DNA of 64,000 nt. Origin: Thalassospira povalilytica (GTDB lineage: Bacteria; Pseudomonadota; Alphaproteobacteria; Rhodospirillales; Thalassospiraceae). The stretch lies in assembly GCF_002844235.1 (NCBI RefSeq), contig NZ_PGTS01000001.1, forward strand, positions 496,001 through 560,000. The letters are read 5' to 3'. Within the stretch, counting starts at the first letter, position 1, and the number at the start of each line of letters is the position of its first letter. Made by a program: the position numbers and the translations under genes. Below the pieces are notes generated by a model that did not search any database, was not told the origin of the DNA, and saw nothing but the letters and a program-made list of their open reading frames with translations. Shown piece after piece: positions 30,465 through 39,243 of this stretch.

Positions 30465-30935
30465 TCAGCTTTCAAGCAGGGAACGCAGCATCCAGGCGGT
30501 TTTTTCATGAACCTGAATGCGGGCGGTCAGAAGATCGGCAGTCGCGTCATCGTCCGAGCTGTCGCAAATCGGATAAAGCGAACGCGCGGTCTTGATCACG
30601 GTTTCATGGCCCGATACCAGCTGACGGATCATGTCCTTGGCAGCGGGGACGCCTTTTTCTTCCTCGATCGAAGACAGTTCGGCATAGGCCGAGAAACTGG
30701 CCGGTGCAAAGGCACCCAGCGAACGGATACGTTCGGCGATTTCATCAATCGCGGTGGCCAGTTCGGTATATTGTTCTTCGAACATGGTGTGCAGGGTCTG
30801 GAACATCGGACCCGTCACGTTCCAGTGGAAGTTGTGAGTCTTGAGATACAGCGCATAGGAATCAGCCAGAACGCGGCCAAGGCCGTCGGCGATTGCAGTG
30901 CGGTTGGTTTCATTGATGCCAATATCAATCTGCAT
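30465..30935 (-). CDS. dps: Dps-type ferritin, DNA starvation/stationary-phase protection protein
   Basis: A 156-residue Dps protein, a dodecameric cage that oxidises Fe(II) with H2O2 and can coat DNA. The inter-subunit ferroxidase residues lie in [10 protein letters not shown] (His31-like) and [19 protein letters not shown] (Asp and Glu). It lacks a Lys-rich N-terminal tail, so DNA binding may be weak. The start at 30935 follows AAGGAGAT. It converges on the amidase operon. Confidence 0.94.
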
Positions 30936-31103
30936 GGTCGATCTCCTTTCGTCGAGGGCGCAACCCACGAAGGTTCTTTGTGTTTCTGTCTTGAGAAGGA
31001 GTATGAAACACGCAGAAACGTTACGCCAATCAATAGTTTATTGATTTGCAATAGATCAATTCTATTACAAAAAGTGTGGTTATAGATTGTGTCATGCCAA
31101 GGG

Positions 31104-33164
31104 CTATTTCCCGGCTTTCTGTTGCTGGGTGACGATGGTGTCGGCCTGTTTCCCGGTCAGTTCCTGCATGTGGGAATAGCTGCGTGTGAAAAAGCCGGTT
31201 CCCTGTGTCAAAGAACGTAATTCCGTCACCATGTCGGCGGTTTCCGATGTCGGCATCTGAACGTCGATTTCATCCCATCCCTGCCAGCCATCCTTGGCAT
31301 TGAAGCCAAGAATTTGACCGCGCCGGGTGCTGACCAGCCGCTGGGCCTTGGATGTGAAGTCTGACGGGATCGAAATGGTACAGCGATCAACCGGTTCAAG
31401 AAGCACCGGACCGGCATTGCCAAGTGCCTCGCCGGTGGCGATGCGGCCAGCCATCTGGAAGGCTTGATCGGAACTGTCGACAGTGTGATAGGACCCGTCG
31501 ACCAGCTTGACTGCGACATCAATTACGGGAAAACCAAGTGGCCCGCATCGCAAGCCGTCACGAATGCCTTTTTCGACTGCCGAGATATATTGCCGCGGGA
31601 TGGCGCCACCAACGATATGGTCGCTGAAGTCAAATCCTTCGCCGCGGCCAAGCGGGCGCAGTTCGATTGCAGCATCCCCGAATTGGCCATGTCCGCCGGT
31701 CTGTTTTTTGTATCGTCCGCGGGCCGAGGACGGTTTGCGGATGGTTTCCTGATAACCGGTCAGAACCGCCGTCGTGGTGATTTCCAGATGATAGTGATCG
31801 CGCAGATGTGCCAGCGCGCATTGCAGATGAATGTCCCCCTGACCGGCCAGAACCAGTTGTCCGGTGCTGTCATTGTGGGTGAAGCTCAGGGAACGGTCCT
31901 GTTCGCATAAATGTCGCAAGGCTTCGGTCAGTTTGACATCATCACCCGGTTTGGTGACTTCAAGCCCGGTTTCATAAAGCGGGGGCAGGGGATCGGGCCA
32001 TAAACTGTCGATCAGGCCATCGGTTGCAACCAGGCTTCCGGTGCGCAAATGTTCAATGCGCGGCAGGCCGACAATTGCCCCGGTTCGGGCAGCATCAAGT
32101 TTTTCATGCTTGTCGGCAAAGATGGTGCAAAGTCCTGACAGCTTGTCCGCACCAAGCGCATCAGCGTTTTTAAGAACCCCCGACAGAACGCGCCCAAAGC
32201 AGAACCGCCCGGCATGGGACAGATGCAGGGTTTTGAAAATCTGAACGATGGTTTTCTGATCATCGGGATCAACACCAAGACGATGGGCACAGACATCCGC
32301 CGCAGGGGCTTCGTGGCGCAATGCCTTAAGCAGCCGGATAATCCCGTGATCCTGTTCGGCCGATCCGAAAAACACCGGCACGATCAGATCGCGGCCAAGA
32401 TCCTGTTTAAGATTGTCATAGATCGTGGCAGGGGCGGGTGTTTGATCTTCGAGAATCTGTTCAAGAAGATCATCATCAAAATCAGCCAGTGTTTCGAGCA
32501 GGCCTTCGCGTGCTTCGTCTTCGCGGCTTGCCAACGTGGAGGGCATGGTAATCAGTTTGGAAGGCTGACCTTCGAGATACTGATAAGCCCGTTCAGAGAC
32601 GATATCGACAAAGCCGGTGATGGCATCGTCATGACCATCGCCATCGCGGATCGGTATTTCACGCAGGATCAGGGGGCGTTCGGAAATAGATTGCAGGGCG
32701 TCGATATTATCGCGCAATCGTACGCCGGCATGATCGGTCTTGTTGATGAAAATCAGATGGGGGATGCGGTTGCGATCAAGAAATTTCAGGATCGGGGCAA
32801 CCGTCATCACCCGGGCGGGATCACAATCAACCACGACAATGGCGACATCGCAGATCATCGCGACTTCGCGGGCATCCTGGGCAAAGTCGACCGATCCCGG
32901 ACAGTCGATAAAATGCCATTCCTCGTCAAGATAGGTGGTCTGGGCGCAGGTGAGTTCGGTGCTCATTTCGCGGGTGCGCGATTGGGGATTGTTGTCACCG
33001 ACGGTATTGTGGTCGCGGATGGTTCCCTTGCGGTGGATGCGCCCGGTTGCACATAGCAAACTTTCAAACAGGGAAGTCTTGCCGCTGGAATAGGGGCCGA
33101 TCAGGGCCGCAACGCGCGGGGGATGTGTGCCGGGTGAAGTGGTCGAACGGGCGGTGCTGGGCAT
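31104..33164 (-). CDS. EF-G-like translational GTPase paralogue
   Basis: A 686-residue protein with the full EF-G domain order: GTP-binding domain, domain II, III, IV and V. It is not canonical EF-G: the P-loop is IGPYSSGKTS (22-31) instead of AHIDAGKT, and it lacks the TTTERIL-type sequence. G3 is DCPGSVDF and G4 is NKTDHAG. Domain IV (SSARGRYKKQTGGHGQFGDAAIE) is preserved. Such second EF-G proteins (FusA2 type) are widespread with unclear function. The start at 33164 is chosen because AAGGAG lies 6 nt upstream. It is monocistronic. Confidence 0.88.
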   Translation of the reverse strand: MPSTARSTTSPGTHPPRVAALIGPYSSGKTSLFESLLCATGRIHRKGTIRDHNTVGDNNPQSRTREMSTELTCAQTTYLDEEWHFIDCPGSVDFAQDAREVAMICDVAIVVVDCDPARVMTVAPILKFLDRNRIPHLIFINKTDHAGVRLRDNIDALQSISERPLILREIPIRDGDGHDDAITGFVDIVSERAYQYLEGQPSKLITMPSTLASREDEAREGLLETLADFDDDLLEQILEDQTPAPATIYDNLKQDLGRDLIVPVFFGSAEQDHGIIRLLKALRHEAPAADVCAHRLGVDPDDQKTIVQIFKTLHLSHAGRFCFGRVLSGVLKNADALGADKLSGLCTIFADKHEKLDAARTGAIVGLPRIEHLRTGSLVATDGLIDSLWPDPLPPLYETGLEVTKPGDDVKLTEALRHLCEQDRSLSFTHNDSTGQLVLAGQGDIHLQCALAHLRDHYHLEITTTAVLTGYQETIRKPSSARGRYKKQTGGHGQFGDAAIELRPLGRGEGFDFSDHIVGGAIPRQYISAVEKGIRDGLRCGPLGFPVIDVAVKLVDGSYHTVDSSDQAFQMAGRIATGEALGNAGPVLLEPVDRCTISIPSDFTSKAQRLVSTRRGQILGFNAKDGWQGWDEIDVQMPTSETADMVTELRSLTQGTGFFTRSYSHMQELTGKQADTIVTQQQKAGK

Positions 33165-33536
33165 TGGCATCTCCTTGAACAGGAAGACCGATATCCCATG
33201 GTGCCGGGCGTGTGTTGCGATCTGTTCCACGCTGCAGCAATCCTGGCAGCCGGTCTGGACGTTTCGAATGCCCGGTTTTGTCCGGGATGTCTTTTTAAGG
33301 CAGGGTGGGGACATTGGGCGTCAGGCTGAGCCATTTGGTTGATATGCAGCCCGGTTTGCATGTTTCGTGCTGTCCGATACACCCCCTTAAGTAGATCATG
33401 GCTTGGGGCATTGGTATCAAGTGGTTGGTGGAAATGTGCCCAGATTTGAACATAATTCGCCCCGAAATGGCCCAATCAGGCCTGTTTTCCTGCCTTGTTC
33501 TTCGGTCAAATTCGTTCTTGTCAGTCGAGGACATGG
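33165..33536. other. Promoter region upstream of the EF-G paralogue, no gene seen
   Basis: This stretch between the EF-G-like start and the first candidate sRNA shows only short frames without codon bias or ribosome binding sites. It should contain the divergent promoters for the EF-G-like gene and sRNA A. I could not fix -10/-35 elements. Confidence 0.5.
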
Positions 33537-33684
33537 CCAGCCAAATCTGTCCCCCCTCACAAGGCTGGGCCGGTTGTTTTCAGGTTAGTTCCCCCACCTG
33601 GAATGCCGCGACTGACAAGGTCTCCCCAAGACCGTAATGACCCCGAATATGTTGGGGCGGGTTTATCCCGCCCCATTTTTTTAT
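33537..33684 (+). ncRNA. Candidate small RNA A with C-rich loops
   Basis: A non-coding stretch that folds into three hairpins and a terminator. Hairpin 1 pairs CCAGCC (33537-33542) with GGCTGG (33563-33568) and exposes CTGTCCCCCCTCAC. Hairpin 2 pairs CAGGT (33581) with ACCTG (33596) around a loop ending in CCCCC. Hairpin 3 is GGTCTCCCCAAGACC (33619-33633). The last is a GC-rich terminator with seven T. The unpaired C runs could bind Shine-Dalgarno sequences. Hairpin 3 recurs exactly in sRNA B. The 5' end is not known. Confidence 0.5.
33654..33683 (+). terminator. Terminator of sRNA A
   Basis: GGGGCGGG and CCCGCCCC form a perfect 8-bp stem with a TTTAT loop, followed by ATTTTTTTAT. No coding gene lies upstream on this strand, so it marks the 3' end of a non-coding transcript. 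Confidence 0.85.
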
Positions 33685-33788
33685 GTCCTGATCCGGGGCG
33701 GGACAGGTGCCGTATTTGCCCCATTTCGCCCGCAAATGGTCATCAAGCGTAGATTTTTAAGCCCCAATTACATGGCAAATTCCTAATT

Positions 33789-33966
33789 ATCGGAAGCGCA
33801 AACACCGATGCAGTGCCCTCCCTCACGACGCATCGGGGCCCGAATGAACGTTTTCTCCCCCGAAACGTTCACACCCCACGGGCAAGGCAACGCTTCCGAT
33901 CGGTCTCCCCAAGACCATCTGTCCCCAAAGCCCGGGCGAGCCCCAAGCTCCCCGGGCCTTTTTTTG
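33789..33966 (+). ncRNA. Candidate small RNA B with C-rich loops
   Basis: A closing stem of 10 bp (33789-33798 with 33891-33900, ATCGGAAGCG/CGCTTCCGAT) encloses two hairpins: CCGATGC/GCATCGG (33805-33836) with inner GTG/CAC exposing CCCTCCCT, and GAACGTTT/AAACGTTC (33846-33870) exposing TCTCCCCCG. Then comes GGTCTCCCCAAGACC (33902-33916), identical to one in sRNA A, and a terminator. The long-range 10-bp stem is strong evidence for a structured RNA. The anti-Shine-Dalgarno character of the loops suggests a trans-acting riboregulator. Family assignment is open. Confidence 0.6.
33930..33966 (+). terminator. Terminator of sRNA B
   Basis: GCCCGGG and CCCGGGC (33930-33936 and 33951-33957) with inner GAGC/GCTC form an 11-bp interrupted stem with a CCCAA loop, followed by CTTTTTTTG. 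It converges on the cyclase gene end. Confidence 0.85.
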
Positions 33967-33997
33967 TCTGTGGCATGGTGCGCAAACAGAGCTGCGA

Positions 33998-35374
33998 TCA
34001 GGCCTGTTGCGGGGTTGTTCGTGTAGTGTCGGCGTGACGTGGCTGCGGCGGGGCAATCCCGAATATTCGTGTCGGGGTTTCACGCCCGCGCATGGTGACC
34101 TCACCGCGCGAAATCCAGTTCGGGATATCGGCATGATCACCACAGGCCCTGACGGTGCTTTCTGTGGCCAGGATGTAGCTTCCATATTGTTTGTTCATGC
34201 CTTCAAGGCGGGCGGCGATATTGACGTTGTCACCATGGACGGTAAAGGTCAGGCGGTTTTCCGATCCGATGGCACCGATCACGATATCACCGGTATTGAT
34301 CCCGCATCGTGTTTTCAGCTTTCCACCGAAACTGTAGACCCGGTTTTCGGACAGTTCCTGAATGGCAAGTGCGGTGCGCACCGCATTCAGCGCATGATCG
34401 GCATCCGGGGTGACCGCGTTAAAGGTGATCAGCATGGCATCGCCTTCGAACTGCGTGATCACACCCCCGAAACGCGAAATGATGGCATTGGTCTGGGTGA
34501 AATACTCATTCAGCATCGTCGCCAATGCCTGGGGGCTCAGTTTTTCGGAGATGGATGAGAACCCTTCGATATCGGTGAACATCACGGTTGCGCTAACCGC
34601 TTCGCCATCGCCGGGTTTGATCTGTTGGTCGGCATGGGTGATGCGATCGGCAATTTCGGGCGATACAAACCGTGACAGATCGCGGGCGGCAATTTCATCG
34701 GTGACTGCACGGATAAAGGACCGTTTGGCACGCATTACCGCAATCGTGAGTACAAGGGTGACCAGAACAATTGCGATGATCTTGTCAATTTCCGCACCGA
34801 TCAGGATCGAGTTCGAGGTCAGATAGGTGACATAGTCACGGGTGATCATGCTTTGGCCGCCCTCGCTCCAGATCACGTAACCGGCAAGGATCAGCCAGCC
34901 CAGCGCGGCCGTGCCGCCGGCAATCAGGATATAGCGCGGATCAAAGCGCAGGCTGCGCAACGCGATAAAGATAAAGACATACATCACCGTCGGCGCTTTG
35001 AGATAGAAGCTGGCCGGTTGCATATACTGGATATGGAAGCTCCAGATCAGGACCATCAGAAGCCCGATATCGGCAATCACCGACAAGGTCAGAAAACCGT
35101 CAGTCAGGGCATTGCGATAGGCCAGCATCAACCGTTTCAGCGTGAACAGGTAATAAAGCCCCAGCGCCCATGGCACCGGCTGAATGCCATTGGACATGGT
35201 GGCACTTGGCGAGATCGCATACAGGCTGGCGAAAATGGTCACCAGCAACAATTGCACCCAGCCAATCAGCTTTTCGCTGTCATGTTGTTGTTTGTCGATC
35301 GCGGCCTGAACCCGTTCGGGCAGGTGGGACTGGGCTTTGTTGCCAAACAGGAATGCACCAAGTGTGCTTTTCAT
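33998..35374 (-). CDS. Membrane-bound class III adenylate/guanylate cyclase
   Basis: A 458-residue protein. About six membrane helices occupy residues 30-230, without a recognisable extracellular sensor. The C-terminal class III cyclase domain (about 255-440) contains the metal-binding segment VMFTDIEGFSSISEKLSP and FEGDAMLITFN, plus GINTGDIVIGAIGSENRLTFTVHGDNVNIAARLE. Both metal aspartates are present, so it should be active. Cyclic AMP is the likelier product, but substrate residues are not decisive. The start at 35374 is one of two in-frame ATG codons (35410, 35374). It is flanked on both sides by candidate sRNAs. Confidence 0.9.
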   Translation of the reverse strand: MKSTLGAFLFGNKAQSHLPERVQAAIDKQQHDSEKLIGWVQLLLVTIFASLYAISPSATMSNGIQPVPWALGLYYLFTLKRLMLAYRNALTDGFLTLSVIADIGLLMVLIWSFHIQYMQPASFYLKAPTVMYVFIFIALRSLRFDPRYILIAGGTAALGWLILAGYVIWSEGGQSMITRDYVTYLTSNSILIGAEIDKIIAIVLVTLVLTIAVMRAKRSFIRAVTDEIAARDLSRFVSPEIADRITHADQQIKPGDGEAVSATVMFTDIEGFSSISEKLSPQALATMLNEYFTQTNAIISRFGGVITQFEGDAMLITFNAVTPDADHALNAVRTALAIQELSENRVYSFGGKLKTRCGINTGDIVIGAIGSENRLTFTVHGDNVNIAARLEGMNKQYGSYILATESTVRACGDHADIPNWISRGEVTMRGRETPTRIFGIAPPQPRHADTTRTTPQQA

Positions 35375-35555
35375 TGTGACCGGAATCCCGATTGCTGTGG
35401 CCGAAACCATCAGACAATAGCACAGGATTGCTTAACAGACCCGGCAATGGCGCACACGACCGGCGGGCATTGTTAATCATCGCCCATTTGCCAAACAGGC
35501 CATGCCGGTGCCGGTTAAACAAGCAGGTGTATTGATGGAGGGGGAGGATGCGGGC

Positions 35556-35587
35556 AAAAAAAAAGCCGGGCAACAAATGTGCCCGGC
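35556..35587 (-). terminator. Terminator of sRNA C
   Basis: On the minus strand GCCGGGC and GCCCGGC (35581-35587 and 35565-35571) form a 7-bp stem with a 9-nt loop followed by nine T. It lies 180 nt upstream of the cyclase start, so it does not belong to a coding gene. Confidence 0.85.
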
Positions 35588-35700
35588 AAGTTTATCAGGG
35601 AGGCTTCACGTCTGGGAGACGTAGGACCCTTCGCAGGGCCCTGGGTAAGCCGGACAGGGCGTCCGGCTAAGACCGAAATTCGGTCAGGGAGAAAACTCTT
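35556..35700 (-). ncRNA. Candidate small RNA C with CUCCC loops
   Basis: Read on the minus strand: GACCGA/TCGGTC hairpin (35671-35685) preceded by TCTCCCTG, then AGCCGGAC/GTCCGGCT (35648-35668), then a GGGCCC/GGGTCC stem (about 35624-35641), then ACGTCTCCCAGACGT (35608-35622), single-stranded CCTCCCTG and a terminator with nine T. The block 35596-35625 recurs in sRNA D with a single 1-nt gap. The accessible CUCCC motifs resemble those of AbcR-type sRNAs. The 5' end is a guess. Confidence 0.55.
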
Positions 35701-35925
35701 TACCGCGGTGCGGTGTTTGCCGCTGCGGTTCGAGAGGGAAGATAGCGTTTTTGCCGGGAAACACCACTGCCAAATTGCTTTTTCAGCCATGCAAAATCTG
35801 CATAAATGTTGGGCTGCGAAGATTTGTGGTTTAACTATTTGAAATTGCGCGATTTTATTTGGGTGATCTGTGTCACTTGCTTGTGAAATGGGCATTTGAC
35901 CGCGAAATCAATTGTGCAACAGCAC

Positions 35926-35960
35926 AAAAAAAATGCCGGTAGCAGGGGGGCGCTACCGGC
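35926..35960 (-). terminator. Terminator of sRNA D
   Basis: On the minus strand GCCGGTAGC and GCTACCGGC form a perfect 9-bp stem, with a loop of eight nt containing six C, followed by ATTTTTTTT. Confidence 0.85.
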
Positions 35961-36060
35961 AAAGATCAACAGGGAGGCTTACGTCTGGGAGACGTAGGGA
36001 ACCTTGGGGAAGATTCCGGTGCCGGATTTCGTTCCGACGGACGGATCATGCGGAGATCAG
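35926..36060 (-). ncRNA. Candidate small RNA D, tandem paralogue of sRNA C
   Basis: On the minus strand: short hairpins TCCGTCCGTCGGA and TCCGGCACCGGA, unpaired CTTCCCCAAGG, then ACGTCTCCCAGACGT (35981-35995), CCTCCCTG and a terminator whose loop holds six C. The segment 35970-35998 matches 35596-35625 of sRNA C except for a 1-nt gap. Outside this block the two differ, so the shared hairpin and CCTCCCTG are probably the functional core. It lies between the LysR gene and sRNA C on the same strand. Confidence 0.55.
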
Positions 36061-36574
36061 GGAAGCTGAAGCGATCACGATTTCGCGTCTGCTCACAACT
36101 TATGATGCAAATGTAAGTATGCTTGCTTCCGATTTAAAGTAGAATAAGGTCAGACCAACCATGCAGGGAATGCATGGCAGAAAAATGTCAATAATTTTAA
36201 GAAATTATGACCAGCCCCGCGTCTGGCGCATTCCAAAACACTTATATTAGACCCTGATCCGGATGGCTTGTCCGCGCGATTTTGCATGTAACGGACCGTT
36301 CTGCGACCCGAAAAACAGCATCTGGCGATTCTGTCGGCCAGATATCGGCGGGGATCAACGCCGATCAGGTCGCCTTTTCAGGGGACAGAGATGAATTTTG
36401 GGGCCGCATTTGGCGGGTTCGCAAAGCGTGGTCCGGATGGTGCGTGTATTCCCGTGGTCCGACATCCGGATCATCCCGGTGATGGCAGGGGGCATGCGGG
36501 CAAGGGGGCAGGACGGGGCCATGATCAGTGACCATGGGGATGGGGCGAAATTATCCATGCGTTGCGCGCAATGC

Positions 36575-36631: not shown

Positions 36632-37561
36632 CTATTTGTCGGCGCTGGCACTGCTGGCGGCGGCCGCGGCCTTGGCTTTTACCTTCGAGATTTCTTCGAT
36701 CAGGAAGTCGCGGAACACGGCAATGCGTTTTGAATGGCGCAATTCTTCCGGATAGACGAAATAGGCATCAAAGCTTGGCCCTTCGAGCTCGGGCAGGATG
36801 CGGACCAGATTGCTGTTGGTCGGCAGCAGATAATCAGGCAGGGCTGAAATCCCCAGACCGGATTCGGTCGCGCGGAAAATGCCGTAAATATTGTTCAGCT
36901 TCAGAATCGGGCGCATGTCCGGTTTGAACTGCTGGGCAGTGGCCATCATCCAGTTGACGTTCGAAACCGGCGGGCGGGCATCCGCACCATAAATGATCAG
37001 CCGGTGATCTTTCAGATCTTCGGGTGTCTTGGGCATGCCGTATTGTTTGATATATTCCGGCGACGCAAAGACGTGATAGCGCAGGGTCATCAACTGCCGC
37101 TGTACCAGATCGGCCTGACGCGGTGGCTGCATGCGGATGGCGACATCGGCCTCACGCATGGCAAGATCAAGTTCCTCGTCATTGAGGACCAGCGACAGTT
37201 CGATTTCCGGATAGCGTTCCAGGAATTCATTGATGCGCGGAGTCAGCCAGGTCGAGCCAAAGGCCACCGTGGTGGTGACTTTCAACGGGCCACTCGGGCG
37301 TTCCTTGGATTCACGAATGCGGGCTTCGGCCATGGAAAGCTTGGCAAAGACGTCATGGGCGGTGCGATACAGCAACTCGCCCTGTTCGGTCAGAATCAGG
37401 CCACGGGCATGGCGGTGAAAAAGCGGAACCTTGACGCTTTCTTCAAGCGCGCTGATCTGTCGGCTGACAGCCGACTGGCTCAGATTAAGGTTTTCCCCTG
37501 CGTGAGTGAAGCTTCCGGCTTCCGCAACAGCGTGAAATACACGCAGCTTGTCCCAGTCCAT
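36632..37561 (-). CDS. lsrB: LsrB/VtlR-like LysR-family regulator
   Basis: A 309-residue LysR regulator. The N-terminus MDWDKLRVFHAVAEAGSFTH with LNLSQSAVSRQISALEE and HRHARGLILTEQGELLYRTAHDVF closely matches LsrB (Sinorhizobium, Agrobacterium) and VtlR (Brucella), and its position next to trxB agrees. Those proteins govern cell-surface, oxidative-stress and sRNA genes. The protein contains no cysteine at all, so it cannot use the Cys-based redox sensing reported for Agrobacterium LsrB. TAGGAG precedes the ATG at 37561. Two tandem sRNA candidates lie downstream. Confidence 0.85.
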   Translation of the reverse strand: MDWDKLRVFHAVAEAGSFTHAGENLNLSQSAVSRQISALEESVKVPLFHRHARGLILTEQGELLYRTAHDVFAKLSMAEARIRESKERPSGPLKVTTTVAFGSTWLTPRINEFLERYPEIELSLVLNDEELDLAMREADVAIRMQPPRQADLVQRQLMTLRYHVFASPEYIKQYGMPKTPEDLKDHRLIIYGADARPPVSNVNWMMATAQQFKPDMRPILKLNNIYGIFRATESGLGISALPDYLLPTNSNLVRILPELEGPSFDAYFVYPEELRHSKRIAVFRDFLIEEISKVKAKAAAAASSASADK

Positions 37562-37947
37562 AGACCCGCTCCTAGATGTCACTGCCGCACGGCTCTGCGC
37601 CAGTCCCCTGATAATACTTCTCTTCTTTTATGGGTAATTTGGTTTCAACACTGTTAAGCGCGTCACACAAACGACCCAAGCCCGTAATTGGGTTCAGACC
37701 CTTTACCAATATGAGGCCTGTAGCATTTTCTGCAAGCAGGCATTTTCCGCAATGTTGATTTCGCAGACGCGTGATTCTTTTGAAATGTCAGACGATTGGC
37801 GGGATCAGGTAATTTGTAAGCATGAAAAAAGGGGATGCATGTTGCATCCCCTTGCAGGTATTTCTGACCACTTCGCGTGATCGGGCAATCATCCTGTTTG
37901 GCCCGGCGATTGACGTGTTGTCAAAGCACGGTCAACGCCCTGTCAGA
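37562..37947. other. Intergenic region between trxB and the LysR gene
   Basis: These 386 nt hold the trxB terminator (37825-37853) and, nearer the LysR gene, its presumed promoter. No gene is visible. The terminator means the LysR gene is transcribed separately from trxB. Confidence 0.6.
37825..37853 (-). terminator. Terminator of trxB
   Basis: GGGGATGC and GCATCCCC form an 8-bp stem with an ATGTT loop; on the minus strand it is followed by TTTTTT. Confidence 0.8.
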
Positions 37948-38898
37948 TCAGGCTTCGTGTTCGGCAATGAACTTTTCGGCCTCAAGCGCGGCCATGCAGC
38001 CCATGCCAGCCGCGGTCACGGCCTGACGGTAAATCTTGTCGGTGACATCGCCAGCCGCAAACACACCCGGGACATTGGTCACGGTGCTGCCCGGCTTGAC
38101 CAGAACATAGTTCTCGTCATCCATATCGACCTGGCCCTTGAAGATGGCGGTCGCCGGATCATGGCCGATGGCAACAAAGAAGCCGTCAGCCGGAATGTCG
38201 GTGACTTCGTCGGTTTTGACATTGCGGACGCGAACTGCCTCGACGCCATCCATCGGGCCGTCACCGCCCAGAATGTCTTCGACAACGCTGTCCCAGACCA
38301 CGTCGATTTTTTCATGCTTGAGAAGGCGTTCCTGAAGCATCTTTTCGGCGCGCAATTCATCGCGACGATGGATCAGGGTAACTTTCGAGCAGATACCGGC
38401 AAGATACAGGGCTTCTTCAACGGCGGTATTACCGCCGCCAACAACCGTGACCGGTTTGTTGCGATAGAAGAACCCGTCACAGGTCGCGCATGCCGAAACG
38501 CCGCGACCATTGAATTTTTCTTCGCCCGGAAGGCCAAGCCAGCGTGCCTGCGCACCGGTGGAAATGATCACGGTTTCAGCGATATAGGTATCGCCGGAGT
38601 CGCCTTTGCAGACGAACGGACGTTTGGAAAAATCGACCTCGGTGATCAGGTCATGCACCATTTTGGTACCGACATGTTCAGCCTGTGCCTTCATCTGATC
38701 CATCAGCCACGGACCCTGAATGACATCGGCAAAGCCCGGGAAGTTTTCGACATCGGTGGTGATCGTCAACTGACCACCCGGCTGAAGGCCCATCACCATC
38801 ATGGGTTCAAGGTTGGCGCGTGCCGCATAGATTGCCGCAGTATAACCGGCAGGGCCGGAGCCGATGATGAGGACTTTGGTCTGATGTTCCTGGGCCAT
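37948..38898 (-). CDS. trxB: Thioredoxin-disulfide reductase
   Basis: A 316-residue FAD/NADPH flavoprotein that reduces thioredoxin. The FAD motif is GSGPAGYTAAIYAARA (13-28), the redox-active disulfide is Cys137-Cys140 in ACATCDGFF, and the NADPH motif is VVGGGNTAVEEAL (152-164). The C-terminal FAD motif reads GVFAAGDVTD. The ATG at 38898 begins MAQEHQTKVLIIG; a longer frame upstream lacks family similarity. It is divergent from the Lrp-type regulator and next to an LsrB-like gene, an arrangement typical of alphaproteobacteria. Confidence 0.96.
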   Translation of the reverse strand: MAQEHQTKVLIIGSGPAGYTAAIYAARANLEPMMVMGLQPGGQLTITTDVENFPGFADVIQGPWLMDQMKAQAEHVGTKMVHDLITEVDFSKRPFVCKGDSGDTYIAETVIISTGAQARWLGLPGEEKFNGRGVSACATCDGFFYRNKPVTVVGGGNTAVEEALYLAGICSKVTLIHRRDELRAEKMLQERLLKHEKIDVVWDSVVEDILGGDGPMDGVEAVRVRNVKTDEVTDIPADGFFVAIGHDPATAIFKGQVDMDDENYVLVKPGSTVTNVPGVFAAGDVTDKIYRQAVTAAGMGCMAALEAEKFIAEHEA

Positions 38899-39243
38899 GT
38901 TCTTTGTATATGTCCGAGATTGATAAAAGCTGACGTCGAACATATGGGCAGTCCGGACAAGACGCAACCGCTTCACGCAAAGTTTGACCGGCGGATATCG
39001 CGTTTTTTGAATGGTGAAATTTTACGCAACAAACCGGTAGTTTCGCCAGACTGTTGAAGGCCGGGGACAATGCCGGAATTCTGCATCGTCAGCGATGCCA
39101 AAAAGCGGATTTTACTGCATTTTCAGTTACGGCATCCAAGCGCAAGATTGCATTCTTGCTCGGAATATATTATTGCCAGCAACTTGCCTCGCTGTAATAT
39201 TGTTTCAATCGGGGTAACTTTCGCGCACAGAATCGAGGAATAA
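38899..39243. other. Divergent promoter region between trxB and the Lrp-type gene
   Basis: A 345-nt gap with an AT-rich centre (GGAATATATTATTGCC near 39161). It should contain both promoters and probably the Lrp-type operator. No gene or clear hairpin was found. Confidence 0.45.

Follow-up and report, generated by a model that had tools for sequence, protein, structure and literature searches.

The stretch of the Thalassospira povalilytica genome analyzed here (the window, all 64,000 nucleotides [nt] of it, from contig NZ_PGTS01000001.1 of a 4.44-Mb genome) contains four predicted small-RNA units, A and B on the forward strand and C and D on the reverse strand, with a class III adenylate/guanylate cyclase gene between the two pairs. 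A preliminary description had taken the four for a single family, each unit having a hairpin of the form GUCUCCC(C)A(A)GAC and ending in a terminator. The four hairpins and four terminators are indeed present at the positions and on the strands that it gave, and the analysis supports terminated, small-RNA-like units with C-rich loops, but these are two unrelated pairs of predicted small RNAs and not one family. The A/B hairpin, GGTCTCCCCAAGACC, occurs twice in the whole genome, both times at this locus (33619 and 33902, forward strand), and its reversed sequence does not occur. The C/D hairpin, TACGTCTCCCAGACGT(A/G), lies at 35980-35996 and 35607-35623 on the reverse strand. The more general motif TCTCCCMNRGA has two matches in the window, compared to a mean of 0.4 in shuffled sequence, where 5 of 100 shuffles reach two. 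A terminator scan of 4.5 kb gave 12 sites (shuffle mean, 4.9), with strong terminator-like ones at 33653-33675 (forward strand), 35565-35587, and 35934-35961 (both reverse strand); the terminator of B, at 33930-33966, was not listed by the scan and was read from the sequence and the fold. Each of the four units folds better than all 200 of its own shuffles (z scores in Table 1).

The rejection of the one-family reading is based on two models that do not detect each other's units. R1 was built from 29 B-type units and includes no A-type copy, while R2 was built from the C/D core and includes C and D themselves; the E values of both are rough, and the scores of training members are no evidence. 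R1 detects A-type units at E values of 8.6e-19 to 1.3e-11, the window's unit A being among the units found, and its scores for C and D are as low as 10 and 12.8 bits. R2 gives A and B 4.4 and 12 bits, compared to 91.1 bits for C and 70.4 bits for D, both training members. The two pairs also differ in promoters, distribution, and architecture. One promoter-like block is common to A and B, the palindrome ATGC-N7-GCATGGYTG is common to C and D, and the hairpin GUCUCCC(C)A(A)GAC is all that the pairs have in common.

Table 1. Features at the locus (positions within the window)
Feature	Position	Strand	Basis or remark
Promoter-like block of A, TTTTC-N2-GCC-N4-T-N5-GGCA-N-ATTC	33485-33513	+	1 mismatch
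Unit A (predicted): outer stem TGTCAGTCG/CGACTGACA around SL1 (loop CCCCCCUC) and SL2 (loop CCCCC), then SL3, C-rich linker, terminator	33515-33682	+	fold z -4.1; R1 E 3e-17
SL3 of A, GGUCUCCCCAAGACC	33619-33633	+	
Terminator of A	33653-33682	+	terminator scan
Promoter-like block of B	33754-33782	+	1 mismatch
Unit B (predicted): outer stem UCGGAAGCG/CGCUUCCGA, SL1 (loop CCCUCCCUC), SL2 (loop CUCCCCC), CACCCCA, SL3, linker CUGUCCCC, terminator	33784-33966	+	fold z -5.8; alignment and covariation
SL3 of B, GGUCUCCCCAAGACC	33902-33916	+	
Class III adenylate/guanylate cyclase gene	33998-35410	-	PF00211, E 9e-24; between the pairs
Unit C (predicted): long 5' part with CUCCCUG, hairpin, CCUCCCUG, terminator	35556-35733	-	fold z -5.8; start inferred from -10-like CGCTATCTT
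Hairpin of C, UACGUCUCCCAGACGUG	35607-35623	-	
LsrB-type palindrome upstream of C, ATGC-N7-GCATGGCTG	35784-35803	-	ATGC-N6-8-GCAT in 29/29 genomes
Unit D (predicted): hairpin, CCUCCCUGUUGA, terminator	35926-36100	-	fold z -6.4; start inferred from conserved TATATT/TACATT
Hairpin of D, UACGUCUCCCAGACGUA	35980-35996	-	
LsrB-type palindrome upstream of D, ATGC-N7-GCATGGTTG	36156-36175	-	right half continues into consensus GCAT-N3-TG-N3-T
LysR-type regulator, LsrB/VtlR-like by locus	36632-37582	-	PF00126, PF03466; beside trxB
trxB, thioredoxin reductase	37948-38976	-	TIGR01292 above cut-off

Units A and B follow a common plan, in which an outer stem encloses SL1 and SL2 and is followed by SL3, a C-rich linker, and the terminator. 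The compensatory stem changes that the preliminary description had expected were found in the B-type copies: in an alignment of 29 sequences, 95.3% of the cells were paired and both sides had changed in 23 of 33 pairs, whereas a control with slid partners gave 34 to 45% paired cells. The alignment of 23 A-type sequences was less informative (both sides changed in 3 of 26 pairs). Unlike the other stems, the SL3 stem hardly varies; four of its five pairs never change in the B-type alignment, and GGUCUCCCCAAGACC is exact in 75 of the 78 A/B copies. In the predicted folds of the 71 distinct units among these 78, the C-rich segments are unpaired with a mean probability of 0.86 to 0.99, compared to 0.49 for all C residues, and each RNA exposes a mean of 4.5 C-rich sites (range, 2 to 6), compared to 1.6 in 120 shuffles. 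When 77 units were sorted by type, 47 were B-type and 30 A-type; 40 of the former have CCUCCCU in loop 1, and the latter have CCCCCUCA. The loops seen in the alignments are CCCUCCCUC or CCCCCCUC, CCCCC, and CUCCCC. Rfam gave no match at gathering score for A or B; there were sub-threshold matches to L20_leader (19.7) and suhB (18.3) over part of A and to nrdJ (23.4) over the terminator of B on the opposite strand.

Conservation in related genomes, the check proposed in the preliminary description, held for both pairs, as A/B and C/D are each present in all 29 Thalassospira genomes. For A/B it seems to end there. R1 gave no convincing match among the 288 remaining genomes of the order (two weak ones, of 24.4 and 22.7 bits, were taken as chance); the R1 search covered the order, and beyond it an exact-pattern scan gave 12 non-Thalassospira matches among 39 stretches, which were also taken as chance. 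A/B is described here as a newly recognized family, seemingly confined to Thalassospira. The regions examined show two copies in 22 genomes, 5 to 7 in five, and 3 and 4 in two fragmented assemblies; tandem copies are spaced by about 270 to 550 nt. In one relative (G010), a single copy (C1:3332343) is near C/D and four others (3373452-3374750) are 41 kb from that copy, and four of its five copies lie about 43 kb from C/D; the array seems to have been split by a large insertion or rearrangement. The promoter-like block precedes 75 of the 78 A/B copies at three or fewer mismatches and 77 at four or fewer. In the whole genome it has 29 matches at three or fewer mismatches, A and B included, compared to 16 for the reversed pattern, and the four that were inspected among the 27 others (L203, L204, L206, and L212) look coding by eye.

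Units C and D are distributed very differently. Their core consists of 84 nt with the hairpin ACGUCUCCCAGACGU, the motif CCUCCCUG, and the terminator, and the hairpin, CCUCCCUG, and T-tract are found in both C and D in all 29 Thalassospira genomes. In the order, R2 detected the core in 244 of 317 genomes and 93 of 115 genera (E ≤ 0.001), or 215 of 288 genomes outside the genus, and in a sample of the class it did so in 148 of 385 genomes and 105 of 276 genera (E ≤ 1e-5). Of 150 genomes sampled from the order, 137 have a match to the neighboring LysR-type regulator at E ≤ 1e-80. Among the R2 matches listed (to about E 7e-15) in genomes of this LysR sample, 65 of 70 genomes of other genera have the core downstream of the LysR gene and on its strand, at a distance of 150 to 1171 nt (median, 218). 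R2 was itself built from LysR loci, and without the eight genomes that supplied it the count among the matches listed is 57 of 62. Four of the five exceptions have their hits on different contigs, and in the fifth they are about 18 kb apart on opposite strands. Seven of the 70 genomes have, among these matches, two or more copies of the core downstream of the LysR gene. Of 16 loci of other genera for which DNA was available, 15 have trxB upstream, 13 have the core, and 12 have the palindrome. The 10 best-scoring class loci outside the order have the LysR gene in 9 (one partial) and the palindrome in all 10. The preliminary description had suggested a covariance search of Rfam and the order; conservation of the C/D core across the order was found, and no Rfam family above threshold was obtained for any of the C/D-type loci scanned. 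In a scan of the whole window with Rfam, a single tRNA was the only match above threshold.

The consensus of the LsrB box is GCAT-N3-TG-N3-T (PMC8844928). Upstream of D, this box is present in 29 of 29 genomes and the palindrome in 28. Upstream of C, 23 of 29 genomes retain GCAT-N3-TG; unit C of the window lacks the final T and thus has the box in part. The palindrome has 37 matches in the genome at one or no mismatch, compared to 3 for the reversed pattern, which is a poor control for a palindrome. Among six further contexts that were read, one contains a DUF1127 gene by Pfam and a second a small open reading frame (ORF; L259) with no Pfam match. The small genes that VtlR activates are, we presume, DUF1127 genes. 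Two palindromes with one mismatch each stand 107 nt apart upstream of the DUF1127 gene (G000:C2:628273-628399). VtlR activates small genes (PMC7486931).

In three relatives (G002, G012, and G019; loci L064, L075, and L082) the unit C gene carries, within its 3' end, an inserted element about 4 to 5.5 kb long. On the far side of this element a 62- to 65-nt copy has been left, beginning CTCCCAGACGTGAAGCC, and a Pfam scan of the G012 and G019 elements found a phage-type integrase in both. The remaining copy suggests that the unit C gene is used for integration, as is typical of stable RNA genes.

The cyclase between the pairs, also reported in the preliminary description, is real. Its role is probably incidental, since C/D follow trxB and the LysR gene across the order and the A/B copies of one relative lie mostly far from C/D. 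A CRP-like sequence, GTGA-N6-TCAC, upstream of C had been considered as a sign of cyclic AMP control with the cyclase and was dropped, being absent from aligned relatives. Upstream of A lies an elongation-factor-G-like gene (31104-33314, reverse strand; NF009379 above cut-off), and beside it a Dps-like ferritin gene (30465-30968, reverse strand).

Possible targets were sought at the ribosome sites of 1,017 computed ORFs, with computed and not annotated starts, from 1.2 of the 4.44 Mb. Seven-mers complementary to the single-stranded motif of C/D were found at 37 ribosome sites, compared to 12 in an upstream control window, and 20 shuffled motifs gave a mean of 11 and a maximum of 23 in the same test. 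AGGGAGG, GGGAGGC, or CAGGGAG occurs at the ribosome site of 23 ORFs. Pfam was run on 20 of them; the three left out are a LivK-like protein that crosses two stretches and two more ORFs, 235 and 142 amino acids (aa) long. Nine of the 20 encode parts of ABC or TRAP uptake systems, namely, five solute-binding proteins (families 5, 8, 1, 1, and DctP) and four ATPases or permeases of ABC transporters. Among 20 random ORFs there were no solute-binding proteins and three ABC or tricarboxylate uptake parts (Fisher P values, 0.047 for the former comparison and 0.082 for the latter). The numbers are small, and they suggest candidate targets in the direction in which AbcR points.

We propose, with a probability of about 60%, that the small RNAs of this locus act in trans on Shine-Dalgarno sequences and form two independent sets, an AbcR-type pair (C/D) and a family found only in Thalassospira (A/B). 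Conservation, structure, predicted loop exposure, the box, synteny, and seed complementarity at transporter genes were all computed. The trxB-LysR-small RNA layout, the LsrB box before D, and the seed complements at transporter genes suggest that C/D is an AbcR-type system. The LysR regulator would bind the ATGC-N7-GCATGGYTG boxes and switch on D and C, whose single-stranded CCUCCCUG may then base pair with AGGGAGG at the ribosome sites of transporter genes, mostly those for substrate-binding proteins, and so damp uptake. A/B would be transcribed from another promoter, and their covarying scaffold would keep 2 to 6 C-rich segments single-stranded, so that translation could be blocked by a number of weak and redundant contacts with G-rich ribosome sites. 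Tandem duplication, to between 2 and 7 copies, may raise the A/B dose, as in Listeria LhrC. A/B are most likely multi-site anti-Shine-Dalgarno RNAs with an LhrC-like mode of action. Transcription, Hfq binding, repression, and control by the LysR protein are what we infer from these computed features.

Several results weigh against this proposal. When every transporter is counted, the random ORFs contain 5 of 20 and the candidates 9 of 20; two of these nine share one operon, the target ORFs were taken from 100 aa and the random ORFs from 200 aa, and the sample is limited to the fraction of the genome and the computed starts given above. AGGGAGG is near a plain ribosome site, for which shuffled motifs are no control, and part of the 37-site excess is expected of any ribosome-site-like sequence. 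The complement of the A/B SL3 is not enriched at these ribosome sites (16, compared to 13 in the control and 17 for shuffled motifs), nor is that of the C/D hairpin (16, compared to 15 and 14). The signal for A/B loop 1 is weak (29, compared to 10 in the control; shuffled mean, 19, and maximum, 33), as is that for the A/B linker (21, compared to 16; shuffled mean, 8.5, and maximum, 23). The tables (sections 11 and 14) of the Thalassospira small-RNA paper PMC6413936 contain no matching sequence, as far as those sections go, and the Rfam ar15 model (RF02345) has no match to C or D at the locus up to an E value of 5. In the class, a search with RF02345 matched 0 of 385 genomes and also 0 of 14 controls, so it is uninformative. 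Finally, the SL3 stem is nearly invariant, which pairing through the loop alone does not require.

As the SL3 complement is not enriched, SL3 may bind something else; given also the frozen stem, its partner could be a protein or an RNA sponge. A/B could be decoys, whose C-rich sites and GGUCUCCCCAAGACC hairpin would sequester either an RNA-binding protein or a G-rich sponge that otherwise inactivates C/D, with tandem copies adding sites. The invariance of four SL3 pairs while the other stems covary fits such a role, as does the resemblance of SL3 to the C/D hairpin, and in Caulobacter the G-rich sponge CrfA inactivates C-rich alphaR8 small RNAs (PMC12559287). However, the CCUCCCU seed of C/D is also present in loop 1 of most B-type copies, and a smaller first test had found GGGAGA before 6 of 243 starts and not at all in a background stretch. 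The idea that SL3 is a general ribosome-site seed, which that first test had raised, was dropped when the larger test gave no enrichment. We consider the decoy role rather unlikely. Still more tentatively, A/B may be a new, genus-restricted, multivalent C-loop family whose GGUCUCCCCAAGACC mimics the hairpin of the ancient LsrB-linked C/D and competes for the same partner, be it a protein or a G-rich sponge RNA; a tandem array would then tune the activity of the AbcR-type regulon, its length (2 to 7) setting the strength.

Other explanations concern the identity of the units. C and D could be alphaR8 (MmgR/SisA-like) RNAs and not an AbcR-type pair, as they have sub-threshold matches to suhB/mmgR (29.7 bits for C and 26.4 for D; cut-off, 41) and to SorX (26.3 and 30.7 bits; cut-off, 46.6). 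However, all 29 genomes have an alphaR8 copy above the cut-off, C and D read AAGCCUCCCU where alphaR8 has UUUCCUCCCU, its published core (PMC12559287), and the C/D locus and box are those of AbcR, which makes an alphaR8 identity improbable. In this genome the clear alphaR8 RNA, of the mmgR type, lies elsewhere, at G000:C2:39865-39939 (L095; 50.5 bits). Two further terminated stretches with GATGCCTCCCTG before the terminator (G000:C1:975808, L098, and C8:74178, L099) have sub-threshold suhB scores of 26.0 and 25.8 bits and are perhaps more small RNAs with the same seed. It is highly improbable that A/B are transcribed from the opposite strand, so that GGGGA/GGA loops would titrate a CsrA-like protein; GGA does occur in the complement of most C-rich sites, but the promoter-like block and the T-tracts that follow the terminator stems both indicate transcription of the C-rich strand. 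We give just as little credence to the view that the units are terminator debris, short genes, or repeats and not regulatory RNAs, as the B-type stems covary, the synteny of C/D holds throughout the order as well as in those class loci that were read, and the 3' end of C is used as an integration site in three genomes.

Under the proposed reading of two independent sets, the LsrB-AbcR circuit, which has been studied in rhizobia and their relatives, would have a counterpart in the 93 genera of the order and 105 genera of the class sample that have the C/D core. The breadth of this distribution suggests that targets can be predicted in many bacteria. Within one genus, A/B arrays range naturally from 2 to 7 tandem copies of a single multi-site RNA, so the reason why small-RNA genes and anti-Shine-Dalgarno loops are multiplied becomes testable by copy number. 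The titles and abstracts searched, on small RNAs or Hfq in Thalassospira and on AbcR in Rhodospirillales or Azospirillum, describe neither set for this genus.

The preliminary description had compared the C-rich loops with those of AbcR. This comparison stands for C/D, by locus and promoter box; A/B belong to another family. Sinorhizobium has AbcR1 and AbcR2 in tandem beside lsrB (PMC8844928 and PMC3712013), and lsrB is in an operon with trxB in Rhizobiales (PMC11975290). C/D resemble AbcR1/AbcR2 (alpha-r15) as a tandem pair beside an lsrB-like gene with trxB and with a box before the small RNA, and they have a putative C-rich anti-Shine-Dalgarno loop, a single-stranded motif before the terminator, and transporter substrate-binding proteins among their candidate targets. 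The trxB/LysR neighborhood was found, the LysR protein being likened to LsrB by locus. Of the two anti-Shine-Dalgarno motifs, the single-stranded one fits the ribosome sites of solute-binding proteins and the hairpin one is not enriched. C/D differ from AbcR in their motifs (CUCCCA and CCUCCCUG in place of CUCCUCCC and UUCCCCUC) and in having the palindrome before both units, whereas AbcR1 of S. meliloti is LsrB dependent and its AbcR2 is RpoH1 dependent. C/D is thus a known kind by locus and not by Rfam model, since AbcR synteny across alphaproteobacteria is already in print (PMC8844928). With alphaR8 (MmgR and SisA-D; RF00519), C/D have in common a weak hairpin, the single-stranded CCUCCCU, and the terminator, but they score below its cut-off and the genome has a separate alphaR8 gene. 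SorX (RF02784) shares with C/D the CCUCCCUGUU before the terminator and is the best Rfam match of D; it matches 9 of 10 class loci, below the cut-off wherever it was scanned.

For A/B, the closest comparisons are with RNAs that have several sites or several copies. The cuckoo RNAs and CcsR of Rhodobacter are tandem small RNAs with CUCCUCCC loops; A/B are likewise in tandem, but their loops do not contain CUCCUCCC, and no Rfam match of that kind was found at the locus. NfeR1 (alpha-r14) has three anti-Shine-Dalgarno motifs in one RNA (PMC8844928) and resembles A/B in having several such motifs per RNA, but it is 115 nt long and no Rfam match of its kind was found at the locus either. In Listeria, LhrC has UCCC motifs in a loop, a single-stranded stretch, and the terminator loop, and its five copies act additively (PMC4132741). 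A/B are similar to LhrC1-5 in being multicopy with redundant C-rich sites, although they occur in an unrelated bacterium, are longer, are closed by an outer stem, and contain a larger number of sites as well as a hairpin that is nearly invariant. By analogy with LhrC, A/B are a new form of multicopy, putatively multi-site anti-Shine-Dalgarno RNA.

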